From assembly GCA_025360005.1 (NCBI GenBank), contig JANYDA010000042.1, positions 62,001 through 126,000 on the forward strand: 64,000 nt of DNA, written 5' to 3'. This DNA comes from Fibrobacteria bacterium (GTDB lineage: Bacteria > Fibrobacterota > Fibrobacteria > UBA11236). A program made the position numbers and the translations under genes. Below are positions 4,201 to 20,600 of this stretch, in pieces (positions within the stretch are counted from its first letter, which is position 1; every line of letters starts with the position of its first letter). The notes under the pieces are model-generated. The model was not told where the DNA came from. It searched no databases and saw nothing but the letters and a program-made list of their open reading frames with translations.

Positions 4201-4797
4201 GGCGCCTTGGACGACTACGAGGCCGAAAAGGCCAAGCTGGACGAGGTGAACAAGCAGTACACGGACCTGGAGAAGGCGCGCCTGGGGCTGGAGAAGGCCA
4301 TCAAGAAATTGGACAAGGTTGCGCGCGAGCAGTTCCTGGCCACCTTCGGCGTGGTGCAGAAGAATTTCCAGGAAGTGTTCTCCAGCCTGTTCGAAGGCGG
4401 CGAAGCGCAGCTGGCGCTGGAAGACAACGTGGATCCGCTGGACGCGAAGATCGAGATCAACGCCCGGCCCACCGGCAAGAAGATGCGCGGCGTGTCCCTG
4501 CTTTCCGGCGGCGAACGCGCGCTCACGGCCATCTCCCTGCTTTTCGCATTGTACCTGGTCCGCCCCTCGCCCTATTGCATCATGGACGAGGTCGACGGTC
4601 CGTTGGACGACGCCAATATCGGGCGCTTCGTCAACTTGCTGCGGCGCTTCGCGCACCAGACCCAGTTCATCGTGGTCACCCATAACAAGCGCACCATGGC
4701 CGCCTCGGACATGCTGTACGGGGTGACGCAGGAGATCAAGGGCATCTCCAAGCTGGTGAGCGTGCAACTGGACGAAGCCAGCCGGATCGCGGCGTAA
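1207..4797 (+). CDS. smc: Chromosome segregation ATPase SMC
   Basis: The 1196-residue protein has the full SMC architecture. A Walker A motif GPNGCGKSN lies at residues 32-40. Two long charged coiled-coil arms (about 170-500 and 670-1000) flank a hinge at about 510-670. The C-terminal half-ATPase has the signature LSGGE (about 1099-1103), Walker B with the catalytic pair DE at about 1127-1128 (CIMDEVDGPLDD), and the D/H-loop segment VVTHNKRTM. SMC dimers compact and help segregate the chromosome with ScpA and ScpB, neither of which is in the window. The ATG at 1207 was chosen over one at 1171 because it follows AAGGA at good spacing and begins the conserved MYLSKLRIFGFKSF. The length is normal for bacterial SMC. 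The gene is followed immediately by an intergenic repeat. Confidence 0.97.
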   Translation: MYLSKLRIFGFKSFANKVEVNFPGEGITSVVGPNGCGKSNIIDAIRWVLGEQRAKVLRSGKMEDVIFSGTAERPPLNMAEVSLLINNDSGVLPSEYTQIMITRRAFRNGETEYLINNTPCRLKDIHNLFYDTGMGAASYSLIEAKMIDSILSDKAEERRVMFEEASGISKYKQQRKETLRQLERTALDLARVEDNLKFVQQNVNMFERQAKKAEKWREIKKAYVSLELSYNYDSYIQLEERFGTFSAEAEKNLDRSGAVQSQITVRESELEEGKLLILEEEQELSRLNQVVAATNAEVVRLENELDRSRDRLVHLDESMRRLAGESEQAGRRMGEFAVEKRTDYEEIARLETEKSALARLTEGHAEEKTRLHQNYAEKRRRADELAEERMQALEELSGLRNRAAAANSELQHLKEDEGELDAALQDVSDRFRTFAEEKRALEEDVRKLEIQVTELGGRIGAGSARLVEIARELDGLRLEERACTSEKVALETRHAMLKGLQESMEGVDGGVQHLLAKAKDRIQSLLADAVQVPEDAVVVAEKCLGRYLQTLVVQDRGAELDLLRELKQSEKGEALLFASGGGSQFARVRPDFSGEPGFQGWIVDKVKSDAGLRPLLELALGHYALVESQDAAWTLLPKLGGRDIWLVTPSGEMLHASGLVLGGAKKGQQTGLLQRKLLLEQTATRLVDVTAKVKELSEAILALDAERKTLEAGQNAMGQEQKQTERKWQEQKSKLNYLNTSLETMDKDKSQKRLKLETVREQLEERERGQADMAGRLEQGEESRKVLENQFHQALESVHKAEAERARFEEALRDLDKNKAHNESQTKALKLRLEYLDRSEKEQLELVGKNAAQKEEWDALAVQLRERMETLADQIQSLHGRMTGEETLRDEAKGVYDSKIGRLDEMRILIRNLNDELRAATQAHHDFSMKMEQARAAMKNIRERMFELHEVDLSNPTKPGDEGEAVLVFERVAYDSATAGEEIASYKDKLKNLGNINPGALDDYEAEKAKLDEVNKQYTDLEKARLGLEKAIKKLDKVAREQFLATFGVVQKNFQEVFSSLFEGGEAQLALEDNVDPLDAKIEINARPTGKKMRGVSLLSGGERALTAISLLFALYLVRPSPYCIMDEVDGPLDDANIGRFVNLLRRFAHQTQFIVVTHNKRTMAASDMLYGVTQEIKGISKLVSVQLDEASRIAA

Positions 4798-4860
4798 TGG
4801 CTCGTCGCTCCAGAGTTTGCAAAGCAAACTCTACGCTCCTCGCTTTTACAAGTTTGCCGG
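4798..4860 (+). repeat. Intergenic repeat, copy A, with a perfect hairpin
   Basis: This 63-bp block starts right after the smc stop codon and matches copy B at 7801-7863 in about 54 of 63 positions by my manual alignment, without gaps. It contains a perfect 9-bp inverted repeat, AGAGTTTGC-AAA-GCAAACTCT (4812-4832). A degenerate half-copy follows at about 4866-4905. Read on the minus strand, the copies encode the same peptide (KARSVEFALQT), which reflects the repeat and not a gene. The hairpin may act as a processing or weak termination signal for smc, although no T-run follows directly. Confidence 0.75.
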
Positions 4861-4918
4861 ATCGGCTCTCCGGAATTCGCTTTGCAAGCTCCACGTTTCC
4901 TCGCACGGAAGAAGCGGC

Positions 4919-6259
4919 GTGAACGCGTTGCGGGAGTTCTTCCTCCGCGGCGTCCATTTCCTGACGCGACCCAACCTTTCCGAACGCCGCCAAAACATCT
5001 GGTTCCAGGTGGAGGCCAAGGCCGAGCGTTCCTCCAACGTCATCCGCTCCATCTATGTGTTGATCTGGGTCATTTCCACCCTGGGGCATGCGCGGGGCAA
5101 TATGTATTGGTCCAATGTGGCCAATCTCGGCTGCGGCGGTTTCTGGCTGGCCTGGTGCATGGGCTACCAGACCTATCTGCTGCGCCGCCCCTACCAGAAA
5201 TGGTTCAAATATTTCTCGACCAGCGTGGATATGGTGGTCATCACCGCCATGCTCGCCATTTACGCCCACGGGTCCGGCTATGCCTATGCGCTCAAGGTCC
5301 CCACCTTCTATAATTATTTCTGCTGCCTTGGGCTGGCCGCCATGCGCTACCGTCTGCACCTGGCCGTCTATAGCGGCGTGGTCGCCGTGGCCTGCTATCT
5401 GGCCCTGTTCATCCATCTGTGCCTGACCTACCCCGTGCAATTCGGCACCGGATTGGAGCATGCGACCACCGGCAAGATCAGCGGAAGCTATATCGGATTC
5501 AATTTCCTTTACCTCATCGTCTTCACCTTCCTCATCTATTTCCTGGTATACAACGTCAAGCGCCTGGTGAATGTGCGCGTGCGCGAAGGGGAGGCCGCCC
5601 TCAAGGCCAAGGAGCGCGCCGCCATCGCCGCCAATGTGGCGCATGAGATCAAGAATCCCCTGGAAGGCATTTACGGCGCCGCGCAAATCCTCAAGGAGGA
5701 AGGCAAGGGTAATCCCAAGTTCATCGACATGATCCTCAAGGATTCCGTGCGGCTCAACGGCGTGGTGCAGCAGTTTTTGCAATTCTCCCGGCCCTTCCGC
5801 ACGCGCATGTCCGATTTCGATCTGGTCGAATCCGTCTCCGGGTTCTGCAGGGAGCAGGCTTCCGTGGCCGGGTCCGAGAAAGTCCGCTTCCATTCCGATA
5901 GCGACTACGTCCCCATCCACGCCGATCAGGAAGGCCTGCGCCAGGTTCTGCTCAACCTCTACCAGAACGCGCGCCGCTACCAGGATGCGGGCAAGGCCGT
6001 GGACGTGAGCGTGCGCGGGAAAGGCGAATACGCGGAAGTGCTGATCGAGGACGATGGTGAGGGTATTCCGGAGGGCAACCGCGAGCGCGTCTTCGATCCC
6101 TTCTTCACCACTTCTTCCAAAGGCACCGGCTTGGGGCTGGCCATCTCGCGTAAGATCGCCCGGGAAATGGGCGGGGATTTGTACTTTGAGCCCAAGCAGC
6201 CCGGAGCCCGTTTCGTGCTGTCTTTGAAACCCGGAACCCCCGGAGAGACCGCCCTTTGA
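4919..6259 (+). CDS. Membrane-bound sensor histidine kinase
   Basis: The protein of about 446 residues has an N-terminal sensor region with about six hydrophobic segments (roughly residues 40-210), a DHp helix with the phospho-acceptor H-box [10 protein letters not shown] (His near residue 242), and a HATPase domain with the N-box NLYQNARR, the G1 box [10 protein letters not shown] and the G2 box [12 protein letters not shown]. It should autophosphorylate in response to an unknown signal and pass the phosphate to the regulator encoded by the overlapping next gene. The frame is open upstream to 4817, but that part lies inside the repeat. I chose the GTG at 4919, which has GGAAG 7 nt upstream. 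There is no PAS, GAF or periplasmic sensor domain, so the signal is probably sensed within or near the membrane. Confidence 0.9.
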
Positions 6260-7611
6260 ACCAGAGCGAATCCGTACGCGGACGCTTTCTCGTCGTCGAC
6301 GACGAAGAGCATATCCGCGAAATCCTGAAAGCGACCTTGGAGCCTTTGGCGCTTTCCGTGCATGAAGCGGGTTCCGCCGAAGAGGCGCTGGATCTGGTGC
6401 GCGAGGAAAACCTGGACGTCATCATTTGCGACGTGCAAATGCCGGGCATGAACGGATTGGAATTCCTGAACAAGGTCAAGACGGAACAGCCCGCCATCAA
6501 GTTCCTGATGATCACGGCGCACGGCACCATGGATACCGCCGTCAAGGCCCTGCGCTATGGCGCTTCCGATTTCCTGACCAAGCCTTTCGAGAACGAGGCC
6601 ATCCGGCAAATCGCCCGTCGCCTGCTGCGCGAGCGCGCCGGCCCCGTGGATCCGGGCCTGACATCGGCCTCCAGCGGAACTGTCCGCAGCGTACTGGAAG
6701 GCATAATCGGCAAGAGCGCCCCGTTTTCCGCCTGCCTGGAGAAGGCCCGCAAAGCTTCGGCGGCGGATACCACCGTGCTCCTCTGCGGAGAAAGCGGCAC
6801 CGGCAAGGAAGTGATGGCGCGCGCCATCCACAATCTCAGCCGCCGTGCGGACAAACCCCTGATCGCGGTCAATTGCGGCGCCATCCCGGAGAACCTGCTC
6901 GAGAGCGAGTTGTTCGGCCATGAAAAAGGGGCGTTCACTGGCGCTATCGCTTCCAAGCCCGGCAAATTCACCTTGGCCGACGGTGGCACCATTTTCCTCG
7001 ACGAAATAGGGGAGATGCCCTTGATCATGCAGGTCAAGCTGCTGCGCGTGATCCAAGAACGGGTGGTGGAGCCGGTCGGCTCCACGCGCACGCAAAAAGT
7101 GGACTTCCGCCTCATTGCCGCCACCAACCGCAATCTCAAGGACGAGATCAAATCCGGCCGCTTCCGCGAGGATCTCTACTACCGCCTCAACATCATCCCC
7201 ATCGATTTGCCGCCCTTGCGGGATAGGGACGGCGATGTGCTGATCCTGGCCCGCAATTTCCTGGCCTATTACAACGATCGCTACGGTTGCCGCTATAACC
7301 TGACGGACGAGAACGAACGGGATCTCCAAGCCTACGCATGGCCTGGCAATGTGCGCGAGTTGGCGAACGCCATCGAGCGCGCCGTGGTGCTCGCTTCCGG
7401 GGACGGATTGGCCTTTGCGTTCGAAGGCGCTGCCGTCCCCTCCGGCCAGAAAGCGGCCGTGGGCATCAAGGACAAGAAGCAGGCCGTGGAACGCGAAGAA
7501 ATAGTGAAAGCCCTGGAGTTGAACCGTTGGAACAAGACGCAGACGGCCGAGTCCTTGGGGATAAGCCGTCGGTCGCTGCTGTATAAGATCAAAGAGTTCG
7601 GCATCGCCTGA
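6256..7611 (+). CDS. NtrC-family sigma54-dependent response regulator
   Basis: This 451-residue regulator has three parts. A receiver domain (about 10-120) carries the phospho-acceptor Asp59, the switch Thr88 and Lys109. An AAA+ domain (about 145-375) has Walker A GESGTGKE (178-185) and the sigma54-contacting GAFTGA loop (225-230). A Fis-type helix-turn-helix lies at the C-terminus (about 420-450). Phosphorylation by the partner kinase should drive ATP-dependent opening of sigma54 promoters. The start is a TTG that overlaps the kinase stop as TTGA, so the two genes are translationally coupled. A bidirectional terminator follows at 7689-7727. Regulated genes are not evident; the pair is flanked by copies of the same intergenic repeat. 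Confidence 0.95.
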
Positions 7612-7800: not shown

Positions 7801-7863
7801 TGGCTCGTCGCTTCTGAGTTTGCAGGGCAAACTCAACGCTCCTCGCTTTATTAAGTCTGCCGG
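7801..7863 (+). repeat. Intergenic repeat, copy B, with hairpin
   Basis: This is the second good copy of the 63-bp repeat seen after smc. It keeps the hairpin GAGTTTGC-AGG-GCAAACTC (7816-7834), in which the loop has changed while both arms are conserved. That pattern suggests the stem matters. It lies between the two-component operon and the convergent ECF sigma gene, inside a 356-bp gene-free stretch (7612-7967) otherwise occupied by a terminator and copy C. Confidence 0.75.
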
Positions 7864-7902: not shown

Positions 7903-7957
7903 TCGCTTCTGAGTTTGCAGGACAAATCCAACGCTTCTCGCTTTTTAAATCTAGCGG
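7903..7957 (+). repeat. Intergenic repeat, degenerate copy C
   Basis: It begins TCGCTTCTGAGTTTGCAG, identical to copy B at that point, and continues with the recognisable blocks ACGCTTCTCGCTTT and AGCGG, but the right hairpin arm is eroded (ACAAATCC instead of GCAAACTC). It lies about 100 bp downstream of copy B. The half-copy after copy A has a shorter offset of about 60 bp. It ends just before the stop codon of the ECF sigma gene. Confidence 0.6.
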
Positions 7958-7967
7958 TTCCCGCTTT

Positions 7968-8594
7968 TTAGCCTTCGTCATATTCTTCGGCGGTGATGCG
8001 AGCGGTTCCGGCTTCGCAGCAAACGTCTTCCAGGGAATCGCTGAGTTCGGTCTTGAGCAGGGCTACCTTGGCCTGGAACTTCGCCAGGCGCTTGGTGATG
8101 GCCACACGGGACACGCCGCAAATTTCGGCTATCTCTTCGTGTGTCAGGCCCACTTCAAAGCGGAGGAAAACTACTTGGCGGTTGGCCGCGTCCATGGTTT
8201 CCAGCAAGCGGCGGAACAGGCGCTTGGCGGGATTGTCCGGGGAGGTTTCCGGCGTGCGGCTGAAGGCCAGATCGTCGCCATAGCCGGCCAGCAATTCGGT
8301 CTGGCGTTTCTTCCAGCGCAGGTGATCCAGGCAATGGTTGGTGGCAACGCGATAGAGCCAGGTGGAAGGCTGGGAGTTGCCTTCGAAACCGGCGAAGCTT
8401 CCGTGGACCTTGAGGAAGATCTCCTGGGACAGGTCGTCGGCTTCTTCCCGGTTTTTAGTATATCGGTAGCACACGCGATGTACGAGCTGGAAGTACAACT
8501 CGTACATGTTCTGGAAGGCATCATGACCCAGGGTCTTGTTAACGGTGTCGAGGGTCTTGGATTCGGTCTGGTTCGGAAGCGTTGTATTCATCAT
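7968..8594 (-). CDS. RNA polymerase ECF-type sigma factor
   Basis: The 208-residue protein has sigma70 region 2 (about residues 25-95, with 'ADDLSQEIFLKVH' and 'STWLYRVATNHCLDHLR') and region 4.2 (about 135-185, with a helix-turn-helix around 'LTHEEIAEICGVSRVAITKRL'), and no regions 1 or 3. This is the ECF layout. Such factors direct RNA polymerase to a small set of envelope or stress promoters and often autoregulate. No anti-sigma gene follows in the same direction. The gene is divergent from a three-gene outer-membrane operon, which makes that operon a candidate target. A tandem ATG (8594 or 8591) leaves the exact start open. The C-terminal tail after region 4 contains a Cys-Cys pair and a further Cys-free acidic end. 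Confidence 0.92.
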   Translation of the reverse strand: MMNTTLPNQTESKTLDTVNKTLGHDAFQNMYELYFQLVHRVCYRYTKNREEADDLSQEIFLKVHGSFAGFEGNSQPSTWLYRVATNHCLDHLRWKKRQTELLAGYGDDLAFSRTPETSPDNPAKRLFRRLLETMDAANRQVVFLRFEVGLTHEEIAEICGVSRVAITKRLAKFQAKVALLKTELSDSLEDVCCEAGTARITAEEYDEG

Positions 8595-8654
8595 GTAGAC
8601 CAGTCAAAGCAACGGGCGTGCCATAGTGGAAATGGCCCTTTTTCCTGCGAATAA

Positions 8655-8725
8655 CCGGAAATTTTGAGCTTTCCGGGTGAATGTGCGCAAGGGTTTGCGC
8701 AGGGTGCGCAAGGGGTTTTGCGCAA
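8655..8725 (+). promoter_or_regulatory. Candidate operator: inverted repeat plus four TGCGCA direct repeats
   Basis: Between the ECF sigma gene and the divergent lipoprotein gene lies an inverted repeat CCGGAAA-N8-TTTCCGG (8655-8676). It is followed by four copies of TGCGCA, three extended to TGCGCAA, starting at 8684, 8696, 8705 and 8719. Spacing is 12, 9 and 14 bp, about one helical turn on average, and most copies are followed by GGG. The core TGCGCA is itself palindromic. The position suits a regulator site for one or both divergent units; the binding protein is unknown. Confidence 0.45.
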
Positions 8726-8799
8726 GCCGGGAAGGAAGATTGGGAAGCAGGCTTCATATGGCCCATAAGGCTTGCAAGGGATGGGCGGGATTAGCCACA

Positions 8800-9678
8800 A
8801 TGAAGCGATCGGCCCAACGGCCGCGGGTGCGAATGAGAACAAGACTGCTATGCGGCGCCGTGACTTTGCTGATCGGTTGCGCCTCCGCTCCCAAGCCCGC
8901 GCCCGGTGAGGGATCCGTCTCTGTGCGTGTGGACGCGGTGCTTCCTTCCGGCCGCAACCTTTTCATCTTCGACTTCGCCCAATCCCGCTACCAGAAATGG
9001 AACCTGTCGCAGGGGCCGTTCGATTCCCTGGGAATGTGCCGCATCCTGGACACGCTCGCCGGCGGCTGGGCGGACGCCTCGCATTGGCTCGCATTGCCTT
9101 CTCCCAGTCGGCCTTTCGCGCCCATGCAGGCCATCTGGGGCGCGAGCGGGGATTTCTATCTGCTCGATCGCGCGGGCAAACGCCTGAACCTTTACGATAC
9201 CAACGCGCAATTCCTCTCCAGTTTCTCGCTGCCGCAGGAAATCCGGGAACGCAACCTGGATCGCTTCGAGATATTCTGGACCCGCAACGGCCAGTTCTCT
9301 TTCCTGGATCTGGGCGAGGGCAAGCTCTGGCAATATGCGGAGCTGAGGACCACGGAAAACCAGGGGGATTGGCGCCTCCAGAACAGCGGCATCCTCCCCG
9401 CCGGGCTGGAGTCCTGCCGCTGGGAGCCGTATTACCGGGACCCTTGTTGCCTCCGCGACGGCAAGGAAACGTGTTTCGATAAGTACTTCAATCCCGTGGG
9501 CCCTTCCCGGGAAGCGGGCGACGCTGGTCCGCATCCGGGAATGACCCGGACCGGGGAATGGAAACTGATGCTGGACGGAGGGGCCGCTTGCGGTCCGCGC
9601 CCGCCCGCCTGCTTCCTCCCCGATAAAGGCCTCTATCCCGCCTGCCCGCCGGAAACGGGCGCCGCCCCTCCCAGGTAA
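8800..9678 (+). CDS. Putative outer-membrane lipoprotein with propeller-like repeats
   Basis: About 292 residues. The N-terminus has a basic stretch, a hydrophobic core and a lipobox (LLIGC, Cys near residue 27), so it should be lipidated and sent to the outer membrane. The mature part has repeated strand patterns such as 'NLFIFDFAQSRYQKWN', 'FYLLDRAGKRLNLYD' and 'QFSFLDLGEGKLWQY', resembling NHL/beta-propeller blades. The C-terminal third is Cys-rich (at least seven Cys). I chose ATG 8800 because it follows GGGCGGGA and puts the lipobox at a normal distance; the longer frame from 8677 covers the operator repeats. The next gene starts within 25 bp, so it is the first gene of an outer-membrane operon. 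No specific function recognised. Confidence 0.75.
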   Translation: MKRSAQRPRVRMRTRLLCGAVTLLIGCASAPKPAPGEGSVSVRVDAVLPSGRNLFIFDFAQSRYQKWNLSQGPFDSLGMCRILDTLAGGWADASHWLALPSPSRPFAPMQAIWGASGDFYLLDRAGKRLNLYDTNAQFLSSFSLPQEIRERNLDRFEIFWTRNGQFSFLDLGEGKLWQYAELRTTENQGDWRLQNSGILPAGLESCRWEPYYRDPCCLRDGKETCFDKYFNPVGPSREAGDAGPHPGMTRTGEWKLMLDGGAACGPRPPACFLPDKGLYPACPPETGAAPPR

Positions 9679-9700
9679 CATCCGGATGACGGAAGCGCGC

Positions 9701-12700
9701 ATGTTGCCCCGGTTCCCGGCTCTTCCGGCGGCGCTCGCCGTCCTGGGCATCCTGCTTCCGTCCCGGACCGCCGTCGCGGGCGAACCCGGATGGGTGTGGA
9801 CGCGTGCCTGTTGGACGTTGCCGTCGGCGGATACCGTTGCGAGCGGATCGGATTCCTCCCGCGCCAAACACCCGGCGCGCTTGTTCCCGTCCTGGCATGG
9901 CGCGGACACCCTGCAACCCGGAGGCGGCCTGGGCTCGATCCGCCGGCTGCGCGCGTTACGGGACGGCGCGCCGTTGCTGATCGATCAGGATTACCGAGTT
10001 CTCCCCGGAGACTCCCTGGTGCTGTTGGCTGCGCCCATGCTGCCGGGGGAAAAGCTTTGCCTGGAGCGCGCGTCCACGCCGTTGCTGGCCAATCCGGCTT
10101 TCTCCCTCTATCGCATGGATCGAGTTCCGGTATTCCGCGGGAGTTCTCTGGACAGCGCATGGGAGTCGGGAGCGCAGCCTTTCCTCAGGGCCGAGGATAC
10201 GGCGTATTCCAAGTACCAGCTGAATTATTCCGGCAGCAAATCGATGGCGGTGACGGTGGGAAGCGGCGGCGGGCTGGGACTGGACGCATCCCTGTTCATC
10301 AATCTCAACGGCCAAGTGGCGCAAGACGTATTCGTGGAAGGGCAATTGTCCGATCAGAATGTGCCCATTCAGCCGGAAGGCAATACCGCCACGCTGAAGG
10401 AAGTGGATACCAAGTACATAAAGGTGTTCGGAAGCCACTACGCCTATACCTTGGGCAATTACCTGATGGACTACGGGGCGGCGGGCGAGGATAGGTTCAC
10501 GGCCAAGGTGCAAGGCGTTGACGGCGGCTATTTCCGGAACGGCTACGCCTTGCACGGAAGCTGGTCCCTGAGCGATGGGCAATACCAGAGCGATACCCTG
10601 CGCGGCGTGGACGGGAAGCAAAGCGGGTACTACCTGCGCGGCCGCGACGGCCATCAATTCATCACCGTGCTGGCGGGGACCGAGCGCATATGGCGCAACG
10701 CGGTGCCGCTGAAGCGCGGCGTCGACTATACCATCGATTATAGCGAAGGCCGGTTGGATTTCCTGGCTCCCATGGTGGTCACCGGCGAAAATCTGTTCTC
10801 GGCGGAATTCCAATATACCGAGCAGGATTTCCAGCGCACCCTTTCCGCGGGGGAGATCCGCGACAGCGCAGGTCCATTCACCTGGTCTTTGCGCGCCATC
10901 TCGGAATCGGAGAACAAGGATCAGCCTTTGAACCTGGTGCTGGATTCCACCCGCCTGCGCGAATTCGCCGCCCTCGGGGATGCCCCCTACCGCGACTCGC
11001 TGGGACGCACGGTGGCGATGCCGCATCGCCAGTCGGCGGGGGCGGCGGACGCGGCTTATCGAGGGCATGGGTACGATGGGCGCGCGGCGTTGCTGTTCTC
11101 CCAGCTCGATCGCAACCTGTATTCCCCCCGCGACGACGGGGACAACCTGGGGTATTCCACGCGTTACCTGGGCACGCAGACCCTGGGCCGGCCCATCAAT
11201 GCGGGCGGAGTGGGGAAGACGGATGTGACTTTGGATCATGAATACCGCGCCGCCCATTACGAGTCGTTCAAGCAGTTGACAGAACCCAGGGGATTCCTGG
11301 AAACCTGGAACCTGGACGCGAGCGTAGCCGAGCGCGGGTTCATGGCCAATCGCCTTAAGCTGGAAGAGCGGCCGTATTCCTTTCTGATCCTGGGCGGCGA
11401 GGCGGGCCGGGCGGATGCCGATGCGGCCGCGGATACGGCTTCCTCCAATCGATCGGCGGGGAGCGAGTCGCGCCGGGGAAGCCTCTCCGCGCACCTGGGA
11501 GGCGAGCGGACCTTTCTGGAAACCGCCACGGAGGCCAAGCTGGCGCGCTCGCCGGATCGCCGGGATAATTACCGCCAGTACGGGAAACTGCATTGGGATG
11601 CATCCGGCCTCACGCCCGCATTCACGTGGACGCGCAACGAATGGCTGGCGGATGTGCCGGGAGGCGCATTATCGCGCTCGGTAAAAGAGGAACCGGCTTT
11701 GGAACTGGCCACCATTCCCTTCTGGGGGCGGGTGAGCCTGACCACGGGGCTTTCCGCCCTTTCGCAACGGGCCAACTTCTCGGCCCGCCTGCCGGATCTG
11801 CGGGACTCCGTGCGCGATTGGGGTGTGACCCAGAAGGTGGTCGTGGCGGGATTGGGTCTTCTGAACACGGACGTTTTCTATTCCTACCGCAACCATCGCT
11901 TATGGCGCCTGGACGATGCCGGAGCCTACGCGGACCTTCCCGAGGAAAGCGACTACAACCAGGCGGAATGGAATACGCAAATCGCCGATCACCGCAAAGG
12001 CTATGGGTTCCAATCCTCGTACCGCATCAGCCAAACCGCCGAGTTCCCGTTGGTGCCCGATTACCGCGCTTTGCCTGGACGCGGGAATTACCGGTTCGAT
12101 TCGGTGACGAACGCGTATAACCCCGTGGAAACGGGCGGCGATTTCGTATTGATCGGATTGAAGCGGGACACCACAATCGGGTCCCGGCCCTACCAGGATC
12201 TTTCCTGGACATCCGGCCTGCAATTGACGCCGGCGAAATTCCCCTTCCCGGTCTCCGGGGTCCTGGCGGACATGGAGCTCAGCCTGGATCTGGCCATGGA
12301 CGATCAGGATACGGCCGCCCATCCCGGCTTATTGCCTTTGTTCACCGACGATCAAATCAAAGGGGCGCGCAGCGGACGTTCCCGCTATAGTCCGGCCTTG
12401 CATTGGCGATCGCCCGCGGGCGGCCGTTCGGCGAACCTGTACCTGGACAGATCCTATAACCGGGCCGCCGGCGTCTACGCCTTCCAGGAACGGCTCTGGA
12501 ACGAACGCGGGGATTACCGCCGCGAGGTGGGCGAGGCCTGGGAATGGTTCCTGGATCAGTCCTACGAGAACCGCGCGCGGCAAGGGCTGTCCGGATCTTC
12601 CGCGGGGGAATCCCGCAACCAGACATATGCTTACGGCAGCCGGGTAACGCGCAAGCTACCCTGGACCCTCCTGGGCGAAGCCCGGGGGCAATACCAGACC

Positions 12701-13012
12701 ATTACGGGGTCTTCCGTTTCCGGCCCCATCGACTTGCAGGGGGTCAAACCGGCCCTCAAGCTGGAAAAGACGTCCCTCTATAACGGGCGGGCTTACGTGG
12801 AATACGGGCTTATCTATTATTGGGGCCAAGGGGACGGGAGTTATTACGCCACCGGGGATTTCGCCAAAGGCCTGACGCATCGGGCGGAGGCGAACGCCAA
12901 TTTCCAGGTGGGGCAGAATATCTACCTCAATTTCGACTATGTGATCCGCCTGGAACCGGGCGGGGGCAAGTTGGTGCAGAAGATGACGGCGGAAGCCAGG
13001 GCGGTTTTCTGA
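9701..13012 (+). CDS. Large outer-membrane beta-barrel protein of uncharacterised FCB-type family
   Basis: About 1103 residues with an N-terminal signal peptide (basic start, then ALPAALAVLGILL, then a small-residue cleavage site) and a final Phe, as in outer-membrane barrels. After a 150-residue N-terminal part come conserved-looking blocks: 'VEGQLSDQNVPIQPEGNT' (about 207-224), 'GYYLRGRDGHQFITVLAGTE' and 'LKRGVDYTIDYSEGRLDF' (about 310-355). The rest is Gly/Tyr/Trp-rich alternating strand sequence. From memory these blocks recur in large uncharacterised outer-membrane proteins of FCB phyla; resemblance to SprA-type translocons is only a loose impression. ATG 9701 has GGAAG at good spacing; ATG 9686 is an alternative. 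The stop overlaps the next start (TGATG), so it is coupled to the Omp85 gene. Confidence 0.75.
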   Translation: MLPRFPALPAALAVLGILLPSRTAVAGEPGWVWTRACWTLPSADTVASGSDSSRAKHPARLFPSWHGADTLQPGGGLGSIRRLRALRDGAPLLIDQDYRVLPGDSLVLLAAPMLPGEKLCLERASTPLLANPAFSLYRMDRVPVFRGSSLDSAWESGAQPFLRAEDTAYSKYQLNYSGSKSMAVTVGSGGGLGLDASLFINLNGQVAQDVFVEGQLSDQNVPIQPEGNTATLKEVDTKYIKVFGSHYAYTLGNYLMDYGAAGEDRFTAKVQGVDGGYFRNGYALHGSWSLSDGQYQSDTLRGVDGKQSGYYLRGRDGHQFITVLAGTERIWRNAVPLKRGVDYTIDYSEGRLDFLAPMVVTGENLFSAEFQYTEQDFQRTLSAGEIRDSAGPFTWSLRAISESENKDQPLNLVLDSTRLREFAALGDAPYRDSLGRTVAMPHRQSAGAADAAYRGHGYDGRAALLFSQLDRNLYSPRDDGDNLGYSTRYLGTQTLGRPINAGGVGKTDVTLDHEYRAAHYESFKQLTEPRGFLETWNLDASVAERGFMANRLKLEERPYSFLILGGEAGRADADAAADTASSNRSAGSESRRGSLSAHLGGERTFLETATEAKLARSPDRRDNYRQYGKLHWDASGLTPAFTWTRNEWLADVPGGALSRSVKEEPALELATIPFWGRVSLTTGLSALSQRANFSARLPDLRDSVRDWGVTQKVVVAGLGLLNTDVFYSYRNHRLWRLDDAGAYADLPEESDYNQAEWNTQIADHRKGYGFQSSYRISQTAEFPLVPDYRALPGRGNYRFDSVTNAYNPVETGGDFVLIGLKRDTTIGSRPYQDLSWTSGLQLTPAKFPFPVSGVLADMELSLDLAMDDQDTAAHPGLLPLFTDDQIKGARSGRSRYSPALHWRSPAGGRSANLYLDRSYNRAAGVYAFQERLWNERGDYRREVGEAWEWFLDQSYENRARQGLSGSSAGESRNQTYAYGSRVTRKLPWTLLGEARGQYQTITGSSVSGPIDLQGVKPALKLEKTSLYNGRAYVEYGLIYYWGQGDGSYYATGDFAKGLTHRAEANANFQVGQNIYLNFDYVIRLEPGGGKLVQKMTAEARAVF

Positions 13013-14664
13013 TGCGCAGGGAACCGACGGCAATCCGCTCGTCCCTCTGGCTGCGGTTAGCACTGGGGATTTGCCCGGCGGCGCTGCCTTTGCGGGCCGC
13101 CGCCCCAGGTACCGCGCCTGTTACGTTGGCGCGCGCTTCCGCGGCCGGGGATTCGGCGGCGGCGGCGGATTCCGCCGCGGGAAGCATCGTGCGGCCGGAT
13201 TCGGGAGTGGAGGCAGCCATGGCCGGCGGGCACTTGCGCGCCGAAAGGGATGCCGCGGGCAAGCTGGCGATGGGCCCGCTTTTCAAGCTGGGCGCTATCC
13301 GCATTCTCAGCAGGCCCGCGTTCACCACCGTGCAGTTCGGCATCAACGCCTATCCGGGGGAACCGGCGACGGCTGCCAACCTCAAGGCCATCGGCGATCG
13401 CATCCGCGCCTATTTGCTGGATAACGGCCAACCGTTCGCTGCGGTGGCCATCGATTTCGCCGTGAGCGGGAGCCAACCCGTGGCGGATCTCACCGTGGCC
13501 ATCGACCCCGGCGAGGGATACAAATTCGGGGGTTATAAGCATTCCGGCAGCCGCACCCGTCCCGACGTGCTCGATCGGCTGTCGCTGCTGCGTTACGGGG
13601 AAACGTTCAGCGAAGCGCGCTTGCGGCTGGCCGCGGAGAAACTCTCCCGTACCGGTTATTTCGAAGCCGTGGTGCCGGGCGCCGTTTTCCGCGACTCCAC
13701 GCGCAACCTGCTCTATCCCAGCCTGGTTCTGACGGATCTCAAAGGCAACCGCATGAGCGGCATCCTGGGATACGATTCGGAGAAGAAGGGCGGCCAGGGA
13801 TTGAACGGATACGTGGACATCCATCTGATCAATCTCAGGGGCACGGCCCGCGATCTGGATTTCACGTTCGACAGCAAACAGACGGCCCAGTCCACGGATT
13901 CGCGCGAGGCCAGGCTGGCCTACACGGAACCTTGGATCCTGACCACGCATGTGGGCGCGCACGTGGATGGCAGGCTGATCCTGGAAGATTCCGTGTATAC
14001 GGAAAAGAACCTGGAGCTGACCCTATTCCAGGATTTCGATTTCCATTCCCGCTGCCTGCTGGCCTTCGCCACGCAAAGCAACCAGGATTTCCTCGCGGAT
14101 ACGCGCTCGAACGCGGAGATAGCCGGACTGGGGTTCCAGTACGATGCCCGCGACCATGTGCCCAACACTTTGAACGGTATGCGATACTCCCTGCGCGTGA
14201 ACGGCGTGCACCGTGATCTGGCGGACACCGCCTACTTCCTGGTGCAGGACATCAACGAGTTCGCGCTGTGGAAGAATGCGGGTCGGTGGGTGGGCTATGC
14301 CCTGGTTTCCGGCAGCGGGAATTGGCCCTTGCAGGCCCGGGCCAATCGCGGCGAACTGTACGCGGTGGGGGGCGCCAACACCATCCGGGGATTCCGCGAA
14401 CGGGAATTCCTGACCAATCTTTTCCTGTACGGGAATTTTGAATTGCAATTCCTGTTGGCTCCCGGCAGCCGCGCCTCCCTGTTCGTCGTGCCCGGCCTCA
14501 TCAACCGCCTGGGCGGCGATATCGATTGGCAAAGGGTGATCGGCTACGGTATGGGGATCGAATCCGGCGCGAAGGACTGGACCTTTGGGATCAGTTATGC
14601 CTTGAATCCGGCCCGCGCGATGGGGAACGGCTTTGTGCATCTCAGCGTCACCAATAATTTTTGA
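13012..14664 (+). CDS. Omp85-superfamily outer-membrane protein (TamA/ShlB/BamA-like)
   Basis: 550 residues: signal peptide, an Ala/Asp-rich linker, one or two POTRA-like modules (about 90-240, including 'TRPDVLDRLSLLRYGETFSEARLRLAAEKLSRTGYF' split across strand-helix elements), and a C-terminal 16-strand-type barrel. The barrel has the diagnostic loop-6 motif in the form GGANTIRGFRE (VRGF class) and ends in Phe. Omp85 proteins insert or translocate other proteins at the outer membrane. The ATG overlaps the stop of the barrel gene by one base, suggesting this protein handles the 1.1-kaa partner or works with it. It is shorter and has fewer POTRA units than BamA, so it is probably an accessory Omp85 and not the essential one. 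Confidence 0.85.
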   Translation: MRREPTAIRSSLWLRLALGICPAALPLRAAAPGTAPVTLARASAAGDSAAAADSAAGSIVRPDSGVEAAMAGGHLRAERDAAGKLAMGPLFKLGAIRILSRPAFTTVQFGINAYPGEPATAANLKAIGDRIRAYLLDNGQPFAAVAIDFAVSGSQPVADLTVAIDPGEGYKFGGYKHSGSRTRPDVLDRLSLLRYGETFSEARLRLAAEKLSRTGYFEAVVPGAVFRDSTRNLLYPSLVLTDLKGNRMSGILGYDSEKKGGQGLNGYVDIHLINLRGTARDLDFTFDSKQTAQSTDSREARLAYTEPWILTTHVGAHVDGRLILEDSVYTEKNLELTLFQDFDFHSRCLLAFATQSNQDFLADTRSNAEIAGLGFQYDARDHVPNTLNGMRYSLRVNGVHRDLADTAYFLVQDINEFALWKNAGRWVGYALVSGSGNWPLQARANRGELYAVGGANTIRGFREREFLTNLFLYGNFELQFLLAPGSRASLFVVPGLINRLGGDIDWQRVIGYGMGIESGAKDWTFGISYALNPARAMGNGFVHLSVTNNF

Positions 14665-14704: not shown

Positions 14705-15739
14705 TCAGCCGGAGAGCGGCGTCTTGTAGGCCTCGCCCGCGATTTCCCGGACATAGCGCGGGATGGCGTAACCGGGAAGTTTCCCCCGCAGGGACTCGAT
14801 CAGCCCGCGGCCGCGCGCTTCCTCCACCTCGTAATGGGCGGTGCCGGTAACGCGATCCAATTGGTGCAGGTAATAGGGAAGCGCTCCGTTGCGGATCAGA
14901 GCGCGGGACAGATCCGCAAGCGTGTCCGCATCGTCGTTTACGCCCGCCAGCAAAACGGACTGGTTCAGCAGCAAGGCCCCGGTGGATCGCAACGCCTGCA
15001 AGGCCCGGGCGCAGGCGGCATCGATCTCGGCGGCATGGTTGGCGTGGATGACCATCACCAGGGACATCCGCTCGGCCGCCGCGCCGAGCAAGGCGAGCAA
15101 ACCCGGCTCGATGCGGGAAGGCAGCACGATGGGCAGGCGGGTATGCAAGCGCAAAGTGCGGATGGACGGCAGTGCCAGGATCCTTTCCAGAATGCGTTCC
15201 AGGCGCCGATTGTCCAGCAAGAGCGGATCGCCTCCGCTCAAGATGATTTCATCCAGTCCTTGCGCTTGGCCCAGATAGGCCCAGGCCTCTTCCCAAGCTT
15301 CCGGGCCGCGCGGGAGATCGCCGTAGGGGAATTCCCGCCGGAAGCAATAGCGGCAATGGACGGCGCATTGATGGGAAACCATCAGCAGGGCGCGGGACGC
15401 ATATTTGTGCAATAGCCCGGGCACGATTTGCGAGGGCAGATCGCCTACGGCATCGGAGCGAAAGCCGGCAACTTCCTGGTTTTCCCGCGCCAGCGGCAGG
15501 ATCTGCAAAAGCAAGGGATCGCGCCAATCGCCCTTGGCCATGCGGGAAGCGAACCCCCGGGGGATTAGCAGCGGGAAGGCGGGATCCGCGGACAGGCGCT
15601 CGGGAGCCAGCGCAGGGTCCAATTCCAGATAAGCCAGCAAGGGCGTCAAGCTACGGAAGGCTGTTTGCATCTCCCGTTGCCAAGCGACGCCCGCGGGCTC
15701 CTGGAGCGCAGGATAGGAGGCTTTTGGAATTAAAGGCAT
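14705..15739 (-). CDS. epmB: EF-P beta-lysylation lysine 2,3-aminomutase EpmB
   Basis: This 344-residue radical-SAM enzyme has the cluster-binding motif C-x3-C-x2-C (Cys125, Cys129, Cys132 in CAVHCRYCFRR). The following regions are typical of lysine aminomutases ('LSGGDPLLLDN', 'LRLHTRLPIVLPSRI', 'LNQSVLLAGVNDD'). At about 344 residues it lacks the long C-terminal part of KamA from lysine-fermenting clostridia, matching EpmB. It converts (S)-alpha-lysine to (R)-beta-lysine for EF-P modification. It is divergent from efp, which sits 64 bp away and is followed by epmA, so the pathway assignment is strong. Confidence 0.93.
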   Translation of the reverse strand: MPLIPKASYPALQEPAGVAWQREMQTAFRSLTPLLAYLELDPALAPERLSADPAFPLLIPRGFASRMAKGDWRDPLLLQILPLARENQEVAGFRSDAVGDLPSQIVPGLLHKYASRALLMVSHQCAVHCRYCFRREFPYGDLPRGPEAWEEAWAYLGQAQGLDEIILSGGDPLLLDNRRLERILERILALPSIRTLRLHTRLPIVLPSRIEPGLLALLGAAAERMSLVMVIHANHAAEIDAACARALQALRSTGALLLNQSVLLAGVNDDADTLADLSRALIRNGALPYYLHQLDRVTGTAHYEVEEARGRGLIESLRGKLPGYAIPRYVREIAGEAYKTPLSG

Positions 15740-15803: not shown

Positions 15804-16370
15804 ATGGGCACGGTTAGCACAAACGAATTCAGGAAGCGCTTGAAAATCATGTTGGACAACCAACCCTGCATGATTGTGGAGAACGAGTTCGTCAAGCCCG
15901 GCAAAGGCCAAGCCTTCAACCGCGTCCGCCTTAAGAACCTGATCACGGGCCGGCAATTGGAAAAGACCTTCAAGTCCGGCGATTCCTTCCAGGAAGCCGA
16001 CATCACCAATACCACCATGCAGTTCCTGTACACGGACGGCGTGAACTACACCTTCATGGACACCAAATCCTATGAGCAGGTGGAGATCAGCAAGGAAAAC
16101 ATGGACGGCGCGGAAAAGTGGCTGCTGGAGAATACCGAGTGCGATATTTCGTTTTGGGGCGACAAGCCCATCTCGGTCACGCCTCCCGTCTTCATGGATC
16201 TCACCATCACCTATACCGAGCCCGCCGTCAAGGGCGACACCTCCAACAACGTGACCAAGGCGGCTACGGTCGAGACCGGCGCCGAAGTGCAAATCCCCCT
16301 GTTCATCGGCCAGGGCGATCGCGTGAAGATCGATACCCGCACGGGTGAATACGTGGAACGGGCCAAGTAA
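15804..16370 (+). CDS. efp: Translation elongation factor P
   Basis: The 188-residue protein has the standard EF-P three-domain length. The KOW-like domain I carries the loop FVKPGKGQAF with the modifiable Lys34 at the same position as in E. coli. The OB domains follow, with 'ITYTEPAVKGDT' and 'VKIDTRTGEYVERAK' near the end. EF-P relieves ribosome stalling at polyproline. The Lys34 loop and the flanking epmB and epmA genes indicate beta-lysylation. This matters here because the giant TPR protein downstream has a Pro/Ala-rich linker. Translation starts at an ATG with an excellent AGGAGG, and epmA begins 16 bp after the stop. Confidence 0.98.
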   Translation: MGTVSTNEFRKRLKIMLDNQPCMIVENEFVKPGKGQAFNRVRLKNLITGRQLEKTFKSGDSFQEADITNTTMQFLYTDGVNYTFMDTKSYEQVEISKENMDGAEKWLLENTECDISFWGDKPISVTPPVFMDLTITYTEPAVKGDTSNNVTKAATVETGAEVQIPLFIGQGDRVKIDTRTGEYVERAK

Positions 16371-17670: not shown

Positions 17671-20600
17671 ATGTTAAACTTTTCCTTCAACCGCAAACCT
17701 TCCCATCTCAGCGGCCTGCTGGGTTTCGGCGCGAAAATTTCCGCCGCGCTCGGCTTGGTGCTCGCGCTTGCGGGCGCGGGTTTCGCCGAAGGTCCCAAGA
17801 CTGCGGAAGAATGGTTCAAGCGCGCCAATGAAGTGTACCAGGAAGGCGCGGTGGACGAAGCCATCGGTTCCCTCCAGGAAGCGATCAAGCTAAAGCCCAA
17901 TTATGTGGAAGCCCTGGCCTTGCTGGGCGCGGCCTATGTGGAGTCCGGCGAGTTCGCCAAAGCGGTGGAGCCCTATAAGGCGGCCGTGCAACTGAAGCCC
18001 AACGATTATTCCGTGCTGCTGGGCTACTCCAATGCCCTCGAAGGCGCGGGCAAGCAGGAAGACGAGCTCCCGGTGCTCAAGTCCCTGTTCAATATGAATA
18101 AGAATGATATGGTGACGGGGATCAAATACCTCACCTTGATCGAAGCCGCCGGCCGGGAAAAGCATGTCGCCGATTATATCGCCGTGCTTGAAGACCTGCG
18201 TAAACTGCCGAATTTCGATCCCACCTACACCGCCAAATTGGCGCGTGCCTACAATAAGACGGGGGATTTCCCCAAAGCCGCGGGCATTTACCAGGAACTG
18301 GTGCAGAGCAGTCCCGAGTCCGCGGAATACTGGTCCGGACTGGCCAATGCCCAAGCCAAGATCGATCCTACGGGCGCGCGCGAATCTTATAAGAAGGCCA
18401 TCCTCTACACCCAGCAGGCCGGCGAGAAAGCCAAACTGGAAAAAGCCATGAACGCCTTGGGCAAAGCTCCCGCGCCGGCTCCGGCAGCGACTCCTGCGGC
18501 CCCAGTTGCCGCAGCCGCCGCCCCGGCACCGGCCGCCCCTTCTGCCCCCGTCGCGCCACCCGTAGCGCCCGTGGTACCCCCGGCCCCCGCTGCTCCTTCC
18601 GGTCCCTCCGCAGCCGACAAAGCCAAGGCGCTGGCAGATGCGAAAGCCCAAGCGGATGCGGATGCCAAAGCGGCCGCCAAGGCCAAAGCGGATGCGGTTG
18701 CGCAAGCCGCCGCCGAAAAGAAAGCCGCCGCGGAAGCCAAAACGAAAGCGGATGCCGATGCCAAGGCTCAAGCGGAAGCGGAGAAGAAAGCCGTCGCCGA
18801 CGCTAAGGCCCAAGCGCATGCGGACAGTGCGGCTCAGGTCCAGGCGGACAAGAAAGCCAAGCTGGATGCGGCCGCGGTAGCGGCGGCGGAAAAGAAGGCC
18901 GCCGGTGAAGCCAAGGTGAAAGCGGATGCCGATGCCAAAGCGCAGGCGGTGGCTCAAGCCGCGGCCGACAAGCAGGCCCGGGACGATGCCGCCCGCCTGG
19001 CCCGCGAAGAAGCCTCCCGGAAAGCCAAGGAACACGCGGACAGCGCGGCCCAAGCCATTGCGGCCAAGAAGGCCGCCGATCTGGCCGCCGCCGCGGACGC
19101 CAAGTCCAGGGCTGAGGTGGAGCGGCAAGCGCGCGAAGAGGCCCAGAAGCTGGCCCGCGAGGAAGCGGCCCGCAAAGCCAAGGAACATACGGACAGCATA
19201 GCCCAAGCCCTGGCGGAGAAGAAGGCCGCCGCCCTGGCGAAGGCGGAAGCCAAGGCCAAGGCCAAAGCGGACAGCACCGCGCAGGCCCAAGCCGACAAGC
19301 AAGCCCGATTGGAAGCCGTCCGCCTGGCCAAGGAAGAAGCCGCGCAAAAAGCCAAGGAGCACGCCGATAGCGTAGCAGCCGTGGTGGCCGCCAAGAAGGC
19401 CGCCGATCTGGCCGCCGCCGCGGATGCCAAAGCCCGCGCCGAAGTGGAGCGCAAGGCGAAGGAAGATGCGCTCAAGCTCGCCAAAGAAGACGCCGCCCGC
19501 CGCGCCAAGGAACGCGCGGACAGCGTAGCCCAAGTCCAGGCCGAGAAGAAAGCCGCCGCGCAAGCGGAAGCCCAAGCCAAAGCGGAAGCCTTGAAGCTGG
19601 CGAAGGAAGATGCCGCCCGGCGCGCCAAGGAACGGGCCGACAGCCTGGCCCAGGTGGCGGCGGAGAAAAAGGCGGCCGCGGAAGCGGAAGCCAAGGCCAA
19701 GGCGGAAGCGCAGAAGCTGGCCAAGGAAGAAGCGGACCGCCGCGCCAAGGTGCGCGCGGATAGCTTGGTCCAAGCGGCGGCGGAAAAGAAGGCCGCTTTG
19801 GAAGCCAAGGCCAAAGCGGATGCGGAAGCCCGGGCCGCCGCGCTCGCGGAAGCCGCCGCCCAGAAAAAGGCGAAGGAAGAGGCGTTGCGATTGGCCAAGG
19901 AGGAGGCTGCCCGCCTGGCCAAGGCCCGCGCCGATAGCCTGGCCCAAGTAGCCGCAGAGAAGAAAGCCGCCGCGGAAGCGGAAGCCAAGGCGAAGGCCGA
20001 AGCGGCGCGTTTGGCGAAGGAAGAGGCGGATCGACGCGCCAAAGTGCGTGCGGATAGTCTGGCCCAGGCAGCGGCGGAGAAGAAAGCGGCCGCGGAAGAA
20101 GCGGCCCGCTTGGCCAAGATCGAAATGGAACACCGAGCCAAGGCCCGCGCCGACAGCTTGGTACGGGTTGAAGCGGAACGCAAAGCGAAGGCGGAAGCGG
20201 AACGTTTGGCCCGCGAAGAAGCCGCGCGCCTGGCCAAGGAAGAAGCCGATCGCCGCGCCAAGGCGAAAGCGGACAGCCTGGCCAAGGTGGAGGCCGATCG
20301 CCGCGCCGCCGCCGAAGCGGAAAAGGAATTCCAAGGACAGGTCTCCGCCCTGGTGGCCGAACAACCCGCCAAGATGGATACCGCCGCCGTGCTGGCTAAG
20401 ATCCAGGATCGCAGGGCTACGGCCAAGGTCCCGGATTCGCGGCTCGCGGAGGCCGAAGCCGTCATTCATTTCCACCAATGGAATTTCCGTCCCGCGGTGG
20501 ACAATCTCCGCAAGGTGAAGGTGTTGTCGGCATCCGGCAACCGCATGATGGCGCTGTCCCTGTTCGAGTTGCAGGACTATCCCAATGCGCTCAAATATTT

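Follow-up and report, generated by a model that had tools for sequence, protein, structure and literature searches.

The locus analyzed here, in a 64,000-nucleotide stretch of Fibrobacteria bacterium DNA (the window), raises the question of what role a giant outer-membrane barrel might play when it is encoded together with its own protein from the barrel-inserting Omp85 family. Four genes and their overlaps were confirmed: on the minus strand an ECF sigma-70 factor (7968-8594; Pfam Sigma70_r2 2e-18, r4_2 2e-9), and, divergent from it on the plus strand, an operon encoding a lipoprotein (ATG 8800 to TAA 9678), a barrel of 1103 aa (ATG 9701 to TGA 13012) and a TamA-like Omp85 of 550 aa (13012-14664). 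The tight packing of the plus-strand genes described in the first-pass annotation agrees with these coordinates: a 22 bp gap separates the lipoprotein stop from the barrel ATG at 9701 (an alternative in-frame ATG at 9686 would leave 7 bp), and the barrel stop and the Omp85 start have one base in common in the sequence TGATG. A radical-SAM KamA/EpmB-like gene (14705-15739, minus strand) and an elongation factor P gene (15804-16370, plus strand) form a conserved flank outside the module. Taken together, the analyses below point to the barrel and its dedicated Omp85 as an undescribed outer-membrane machine, nearly confined to genomes that also encode a type IX secretion channel.

The barrel, at about 1.1 kaa, has no assigned family: it reaches no Pfam or NCBIfam cut-off, and PDB sequence-profile searches with it gave nothing relevant, in line with its original description as an uncharacterized large outer-membrane protein. 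A literature search found no paper describing the barrel family or the barrel-Omp85 pair, and none on NHL proteins together with Omp85, on "SprA-like" barrels, or on MglA/roadblock proteins in Fibrobacter. The AF2 model of the window barrel (pLDDT 78.5, pTM 0.67) has strands occupying residues 170-1103 of a protein of about 120 kDa, and DSSP assignments on this model and on that of a relative from another phylum, L080 (pLDDT 81.2), predict approximately 36-42 strands. If this is true, the protein would rank among the largest single-chain barrels and would be relevant to the insertion of barrels of exceptional size into the outer membrane.

The obvious comparison is with SprA/Sov, the 36-strand translocon of the type IX secretion system (T9SS; TIGR04189; PDB 6h3i, 8gl6, 8gl8), which carries a large extracellular cap, with more than 150 kDa outside, binds PorV, Plug and CTD cargo, and to our knowledge has so far been regarded as unique. 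TIGR04189 scores the window barrel at only 14.5 bits against a 200-bit cut-off, and the barrels of other FCB members also fall below that cut-off. The match is confined to residues 321-360 (10661-10780, plus strand), a mini-domain with the pattern GTExxxxNGxxLxRGxDYxIDYxxGxIxF, which hhalign aligns to SprA with E 2.5e-13. As the same mini-domain is found in FlgK/FlgL, flagellar proteins of the same genome, this match alone was rejected as proof of homology to SprA, and the N-terminal strands were therefore compared with SprA separately. These strands (approximately residues 170-310 of the window barrel; 10208-10630, plus strand) display profile homology to SprA, with residues 140-299 of L080 aligning to SprA columns 176-322 (hhalign 93%, E 4e-7) colinearly with the DY motif, while the C-terminal part of the barrel gave no sequence signal against SprA.

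Structural comparison leads in the same direction: Foldseek searches with the L080 model return SprA (8gl8/8gl6) as top matches, SprA ranking first for one of the two models, and VIA-align superimposes 727 residues of the window barrel model on SprA 6h3i with Z 15.4. However, these matches to SprA come with low TM-scores and a large rmsd, other barrels including many porins and TonB receptors reach equally high Z against the models, and SprA is absent among the 50 matches listed by VIA for the L080 model, although Foldseek places it first. On the combined evidence, the giant barrel is distantly homologous to SprA, and shorter. It is not SprA itself, since the genome encodes a full-length SprA at another locus, beside which the barrel is a single-copy paralogue. 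The two have in common a giant single-chain barrel, colinear N-terminal strands, the DY-IDY mini-domain and occurrence in the same genomes; they differ in that the barrel is half as long (about 950-1250 as against 1900-2700 aa), has no room for the large extracellular cap, and is linked to an Omp85. Hence, SprA would gain a widespread short paralogue. LptD, likewise a large barrel with a partner lipoprotein, is also among the Foldseek matches of L080, but the giant barrel has no LptD-type match in Pfam or NCBIfam, has more predicted strands, and is partnered by an Omp85.

Inspection of this Omp85 bears out its initial description as a protein with few POTRA units and an IRGF loop: Pfam detects two POTRA stretches (E 2e-9) in addition to the Omp85 domain, and a motif search places IRGF of the L6 loop at residues 458-461 (14383-14394, plus strand), with G453, G454 and G460 around it invariant in the alignment. 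The protein lacks a lipobox, and its PDB profile matches are to BamA/TamA structures. It shares the Omp85 fold and the IRGF loop with BamA, but forms a distinct subfamily that the tree separates from the BamA-containing clade (support 100/99). Membership of BamA was rejected on account of this separation, the far smaller number of POTRA units and a score of 44 bits against the 297-bit cut-off of TIGR03303; further, a five-POTRA BamA is encoded separately elsewhere in the genome. In size, few POTRA units (TamA has about three) and profile matches to TamA structures it resembles TamA/TamL, from which it differs in having the giant barrel as its partner gene rather than tamB and in the missing lipobox. 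The loci compared contain the giant barrel, propeller/MglA genes, EpmB and EF-P as neighbors and no tamB, and the scores fall far short of both NCBIfam cut-offs, for TamA and for TamL; assignment to the TAM system was accordingly rejected. So was two-partner secretion (TpsB/TpsA), in which a ShlB/POTRA_2 transporter is paired with a secreted beta-helix TpsA carrying a TPS domain, as Pfam finds no ShlB, POTRA_2 or TPS domain and the partner is a barrel. In Flavobacterium johnsoniae, a TamA homologue with an SPase I signal and no TamB neighbor, Fjoh_0402, has been described, and deletion of the TamA-like protein caused no growth defect (PMC12045153). Fjoh_0402 may be the orthologue of the barrel-linked Omp85; if true, this orphan would be explained, with the Bacteroidota TamA-like Omp85 lacking TamB gaining a barrel partner.

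The phyletic distribution provides evidence for a link between the two proteins. The barrel is present in all 41 Fibrobacteria genomes searched, with the Omp85 directly downstream in 39 of these, a conservation far beyond chance, and is also found in many other FCB phyla. A six-frame search recovered adjacent pairs in Neomarinimicrobiota, Latescibacterota, Calditrichia, Zixibacteria and Eisenbacteria too, and the genes overlap or nearly overlap at such loci in several phyla. In most Bacteroidota and Ignavibacteria the two genes are unlinked, with the specific Omp85 still present. Among 198 Bacteroidota genomes, this Omp85 occurs in 112 of 120 with the barrel versus none of 78 without it (Fisher 2e-46). 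Additionally, on a tree of SprA genes from 70 Bacteroidota genomes and five outgroups, the genomes that have SprA and lack the barrel form nine clades, all without this Omp85. The pattern points to barrel and dedicated Omp85 being kept and lost together across Fibrobacterota-Chlorobiota-Bacteroidota, with about nine separate losses in the Bacteroidota sample. Given adjacency, co-occurrence and co-loss, their coupling is well supported. The first-pass annotation, which had proposed this coupling, would have given it up had the homologues not been neighbors in other FCB genomes, or had the barrel been a known translocon or porin with no Omp85 link; instead, several phyla have them as neighbors, they co-occur also in genomes where they are unlinked, and the barrel, while a relative of SprA, has the Omp85 link.

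The module is in turn almost wholly nested within the distribution of SprA. In the Bacteroidota sample SprA is present in 120/120 genomes with the barrel and the barrel in 0/44 genomes without SprA; in a further 30 barrel genomes picked mostly from other phyla, SprA is over the cut-off in 28. In one Bacteroidota genome the specific Omp85 is encoded just upstream of porP-gldK-gldL-gldM. In 34 genomes SprA is present and the module absent, so the module is dispensable for the T9SS; the nesting could stem from shared ancestry or lifestyle.

The suggestion of an accessory beside the barrel also finds support, as an exported propeller-type protein is often encoded there: in other phyla, NHL repeats are present in 21/21 of the proteins upstream of the barrel. 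For the window lipoprotein, the earlier description as a lipidated propeller-like protein stands as regards lipidation, the lipobox L-I-G-C having its cysteine at C27 (8878-8880, plus strand), a near-invariant alignment column kept in most homologues, which were found in the window's own family (f1) and in family f2 of the class. The propeller part stands only partially: the protein has no Pfam match, and hhalign relates it to the NHL propellers that occupy this position in other phyla with E 1.9e-5 (78%, 80 columns). It is hence probably a divergent relative of these NHL/six-bladed-propeller exported proteins.

We tentatively favor, at somewhat less than even confidence, the view that the module is a T9SS-associated accessory barrel assembled, or docked and gated, by its own TamA-like Omp85. 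This view starts from the observed SprA homology and adjacency, the near-perfect co-occurrence and co-loss, and the absence of the barrel from the SprA-less Bacteroidota sampled. The operon would then represent a conserved FCB outer-membrane module of a short SprA-type barrel and its own Omp85, often with an exported NHL propeller. The strand number of the barrel may exceed the capacity of BAM alone, and the Omp85 could be its specialized assembly or docking partner, with the POTRA domains receiving the barrel and the L6/seam region templating it or touching it laterally. The propeller might act as a cap or adaptor on the periplasmic or surface side, and the finished barrel might serve part of the T9SS output, beside the T9SS itself, either as an accessory channel or as a scaffold for surface assembly, which would bear on further surface activities of T9SS-bearing bacteria. 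A broader formulation makes the module a core FCB machine that acts with or downstream of the T9SS: a second barrel of the SprA type, lacking the cap and having about 36-42 strands, would be built and gated by a dedicated Omp85 and propeller. Its probability falls short of an even chance. The lack of linkage between the two genes in most Bacteroidota, and the dispensability for growth of the possible orthologue in F. johnsoniae (PMC12045153), speak against the favored view.

Homology to the SprA translocon, a private Omp85 and propeller, and single-copy conservation across phyla could alternatively indicate that the barrel exports its own substrates in parallel to the T9SS, gated by the Omp85 and propeller, which corresponds to the secretion option of the first-pass annotation. 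This is unlikely: the conserved neighbors of the barrel include no candidate cargo gene, neither a motor nor an inner-membrane component is linked to it, and in the Bacteroidota sample it always accompanies SprA, which makes its full independence improbable. Equally doubtful is a scheme making the barrel a machine part rather than a client, with barrel and Omp85 building other outer-membrane or surface parts, such as large T9SS components, SusCD-type complexes or surface lipoproteins. The POTRA-bearing Omp85 fold, the strict co-occurrence, the restriction to SprA-bearing genomes and the unusual BAM complexes for complex OMPs in FCB bacteria (PMC12611786) speak for it; however, BAM is separate in the window's genome, and as SprA is also found in genomes that lack the module, no component common to all T9SS depends on it. 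Least probable is a role in uptake, the barrel being a porin, or a receptor for some large ligand, that ordinary BAM inserts and that lifestyle retains alongside an Omp85 with its own TamA-like or lipid-homeostasis role, for while ordinary porins and TonB receptors do match the model by Z and a Bacteroidota TamA homologue without a TamB neighbor is known (PMC12045153), the (nearly) overlapping gene pairs in several phyla, nine joint absences with no Omp85 lacking a barrel, the SprA homology and the absence of any Pfam TonB-receptor or plug domain in the family all tell against it.

A place for the ECF sigma factor within the system is not supported. No anti-sigma gene is seen between it and its neighbors among the adjoining genes of the window, and it was not found at the loci of the other families of the class (f2-f4). 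Being confined to f1, it is not part of the conserved module, and is probably a local regulator outside it; in that family, 10/10 genomes have it in divergent orientation next to the operon.

The gene layout proposed by the first-pass annotation is borne out: an ECF sigma factor gene with Pfam Sigma70 regions (7968-8594, minus strand) lies divergent from three plus-strand genes encoding a lipoprotein (8800-9678), a giant outer-membrane barrel protein of 1103 aa (9701-13012) and an Omp85 protein (13012-14664), with a 22-bp gap between the first two and a one-base overlap, TGATG, between the latter two. The lipoprotein and barrel have no Pfam matches, while the Omp85 shows POTRA and weak Omp85 matches. 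Paired genes for a histidine kinase and a sigma-54 response regulator (4817-7611, plus strand) lie upstream of the sigma factor and recur at this position in further genomes of the genus. The gap between the response regulator gene and the sigma gene contains two similar stretches, 'cgcttctgagtttgcagg...aacgct' (7808-7850 and 7904-7950), which may be a dispersed repeat, since the peptide KARSVEFALQT from their opposite-strand reading recurs in an ORF at 4736-5920. At 17671-28869 (plus strand) is the gene for a TPR-like protein of 3732 aa, in which a long Ala/Lys/Asp-rich stretch resembles TolA; related sequence occurs near the barrel locus in L035.

Within the class Fibrobacteria, the barrel is found in 41/41 genomes and the Omp85 in 40/41, the one lacking it being an 80%-complete bin; the two genes adjoin in all genomes except the two of family f4, and in most of the class the locus is bordered by genes for EpmB-like and EF-P proteins. 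The lipoprotein is confined to the window's family (f1) and family f2, and the divergent sigma factor, present in 10/10 f1 genomes, was not found at the locus in the other families of the class. Hence, the conserved core comprises the barrel and the Omp85. In Fibrobacteraceae (loci L042-L044 and L047-L071), three genes stand in for the lipoprotein gene upstream of the barrel: one for an MglA-like small GTPase extended at its C-terminus, one for a roadblock/LC7 protein, and one for a 153-aa protein that has no Pfam match and a hydrophobic stretch near its N-terminus. These neighbors suggest a link of the barrel-Omp85 pair to polarity or gliding control.

Several lines of evidence indicate that the barrel is related to SprA, the type IX secretion system (T9SS) channel. 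An AlphaFold2 model from 40 class sequences (pLDDT 78.5, pTM 0.67) places a huge barrel between residue ~170 and the C-terminus, with 36-42 strands counted by hand. For an independent model of a Neomarinimicrobiota relative, built from 38 diverse sequences (pLDDT 81.2, pTM 0.69), the top two Foldseek matches are SprA structures (E 9e-11 and 2e-10). VIA-align superimposes SprA (6h3i) on the window model across residues 170-1103 (727 residues, Z 15.4, rmsd 9.1), but small porins attain a similar Z. At the sequence level, the barrel's N-terminal strands, tested separately, match the N-terminal region of SprA (93%, E 4e-7) and lie in the same order relative to a ~50-residue mini-domain as they do in SprA; beyond these two elements there is no sequence signal to SprA. 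The match of the SprA model TIGR04189 is confined to this mini-domain and is by itself weak evidence of homology, because FlgK and FlgL of the window's genome (around 217918 of contig C14) carry it too, as an inserted 'GxDYxVDYxxGxIxF' mini-domain, which also explains the weak TIGR04189 signal on flagellar proteins.

The nearest structures to the Omp85 are BamA and TamA, and it scores below every curated family cut-off. In a tree of 37 proteins, including the paralogues of the window's genome, all 26 Omp85s of the barrel module split from BamA and other paralogues (support 100/99). Two further paralogues in that genome, neither BamA nor of the module type (C16:29554-29934 and C17:87938-88174), group together with 100/100 support. 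The F. johnsoniae protein Fjoh_0402, reported as an unexpected homologue of TamA that has no TamB neighbor and is dispensable for growth (PMC12045153), may be an orthologue of the module-type Omp85.

Run against GTDB contigs, the barrel profile of the class recovered homologues, mostly 1000-1250 aa long, in Neomarinimicrobiota, Latescibacterota, Cloacimonadota, Calditrichota, Zixibacteria, Eisenbacteria, Ignavibacteria, Balneolia and Bacteroidia. The Omp85 directly follows the barrel in Neomarinimicrobiota, Latescibacterota, Calditrichia, Zixibacteria, Eisenbacteria and some further records; in Bacteroidota it lies ~6 kb downstream in two genomes and elsewhere in most. Directly upstream of the barrel in other phyla is often an exported NHL-repeat protein (NHL match in 21/21 chosen for alignment), whose profile the window's lipoprotein matches.

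Among 198 evenly drawn Bacteroidota genomes, 120 carry the barrel, and the module-type Omp85 (E < 1e-30) is present in 112 of these as against 0 of the 78 barrel-negative genomes, for which the matches listed are BamA-length proteins; three of the eight barrel genomes short of the threshold carry a divergent member of 570-584 aa. SprA exceeds its cut-off in 154 genomes, 120 with and 34 without the barrel, the remaining 44 having neither, such that in this sample the pair occurs within SprA-bearing genomes. A SprA gene tree with 75 sequences, taken as a stand-in for the species tree with the outgroup scored barrel-positive, places the barrel-negative genomes in nine separate clades (Fitch 9 changes versus a shuffled mean of 24). 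The Omp85 is absent from all nine, and therefore both genes were probably lost jointly several times. SprA passes the cut-off in 28 of 30 barrel genomes that were picked for the most part from other phyla; the remaining two are probably bins with missing sequence, one totalling just 1.5 Mb.

The giant barrel, a SprA relative, and its specific Omp85 are conserved, linked, co-occurring and probably lost together. They belong to known kinds, the SprA-type barrels and the TamA-type Omp85 proteins. The barrel falls outside all Pfam and NCBIfam models, and the open-access literature searched held no description of it or of the pair. The Omp85 could assemble or dock the barrel, which might act as a T9SS-associated accessory. 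As SprA persists without the pair, the pair is no core T9SS part; the barrel probably depends on something the T9SS provides, since it never occurs without SprA in the Bacteroidota sample. In a Chitinophaga MAG (L202, 6420-15001), the module-type Omp85 closely precedes the T9SS core genes porP, gldK, gldL and gldM.
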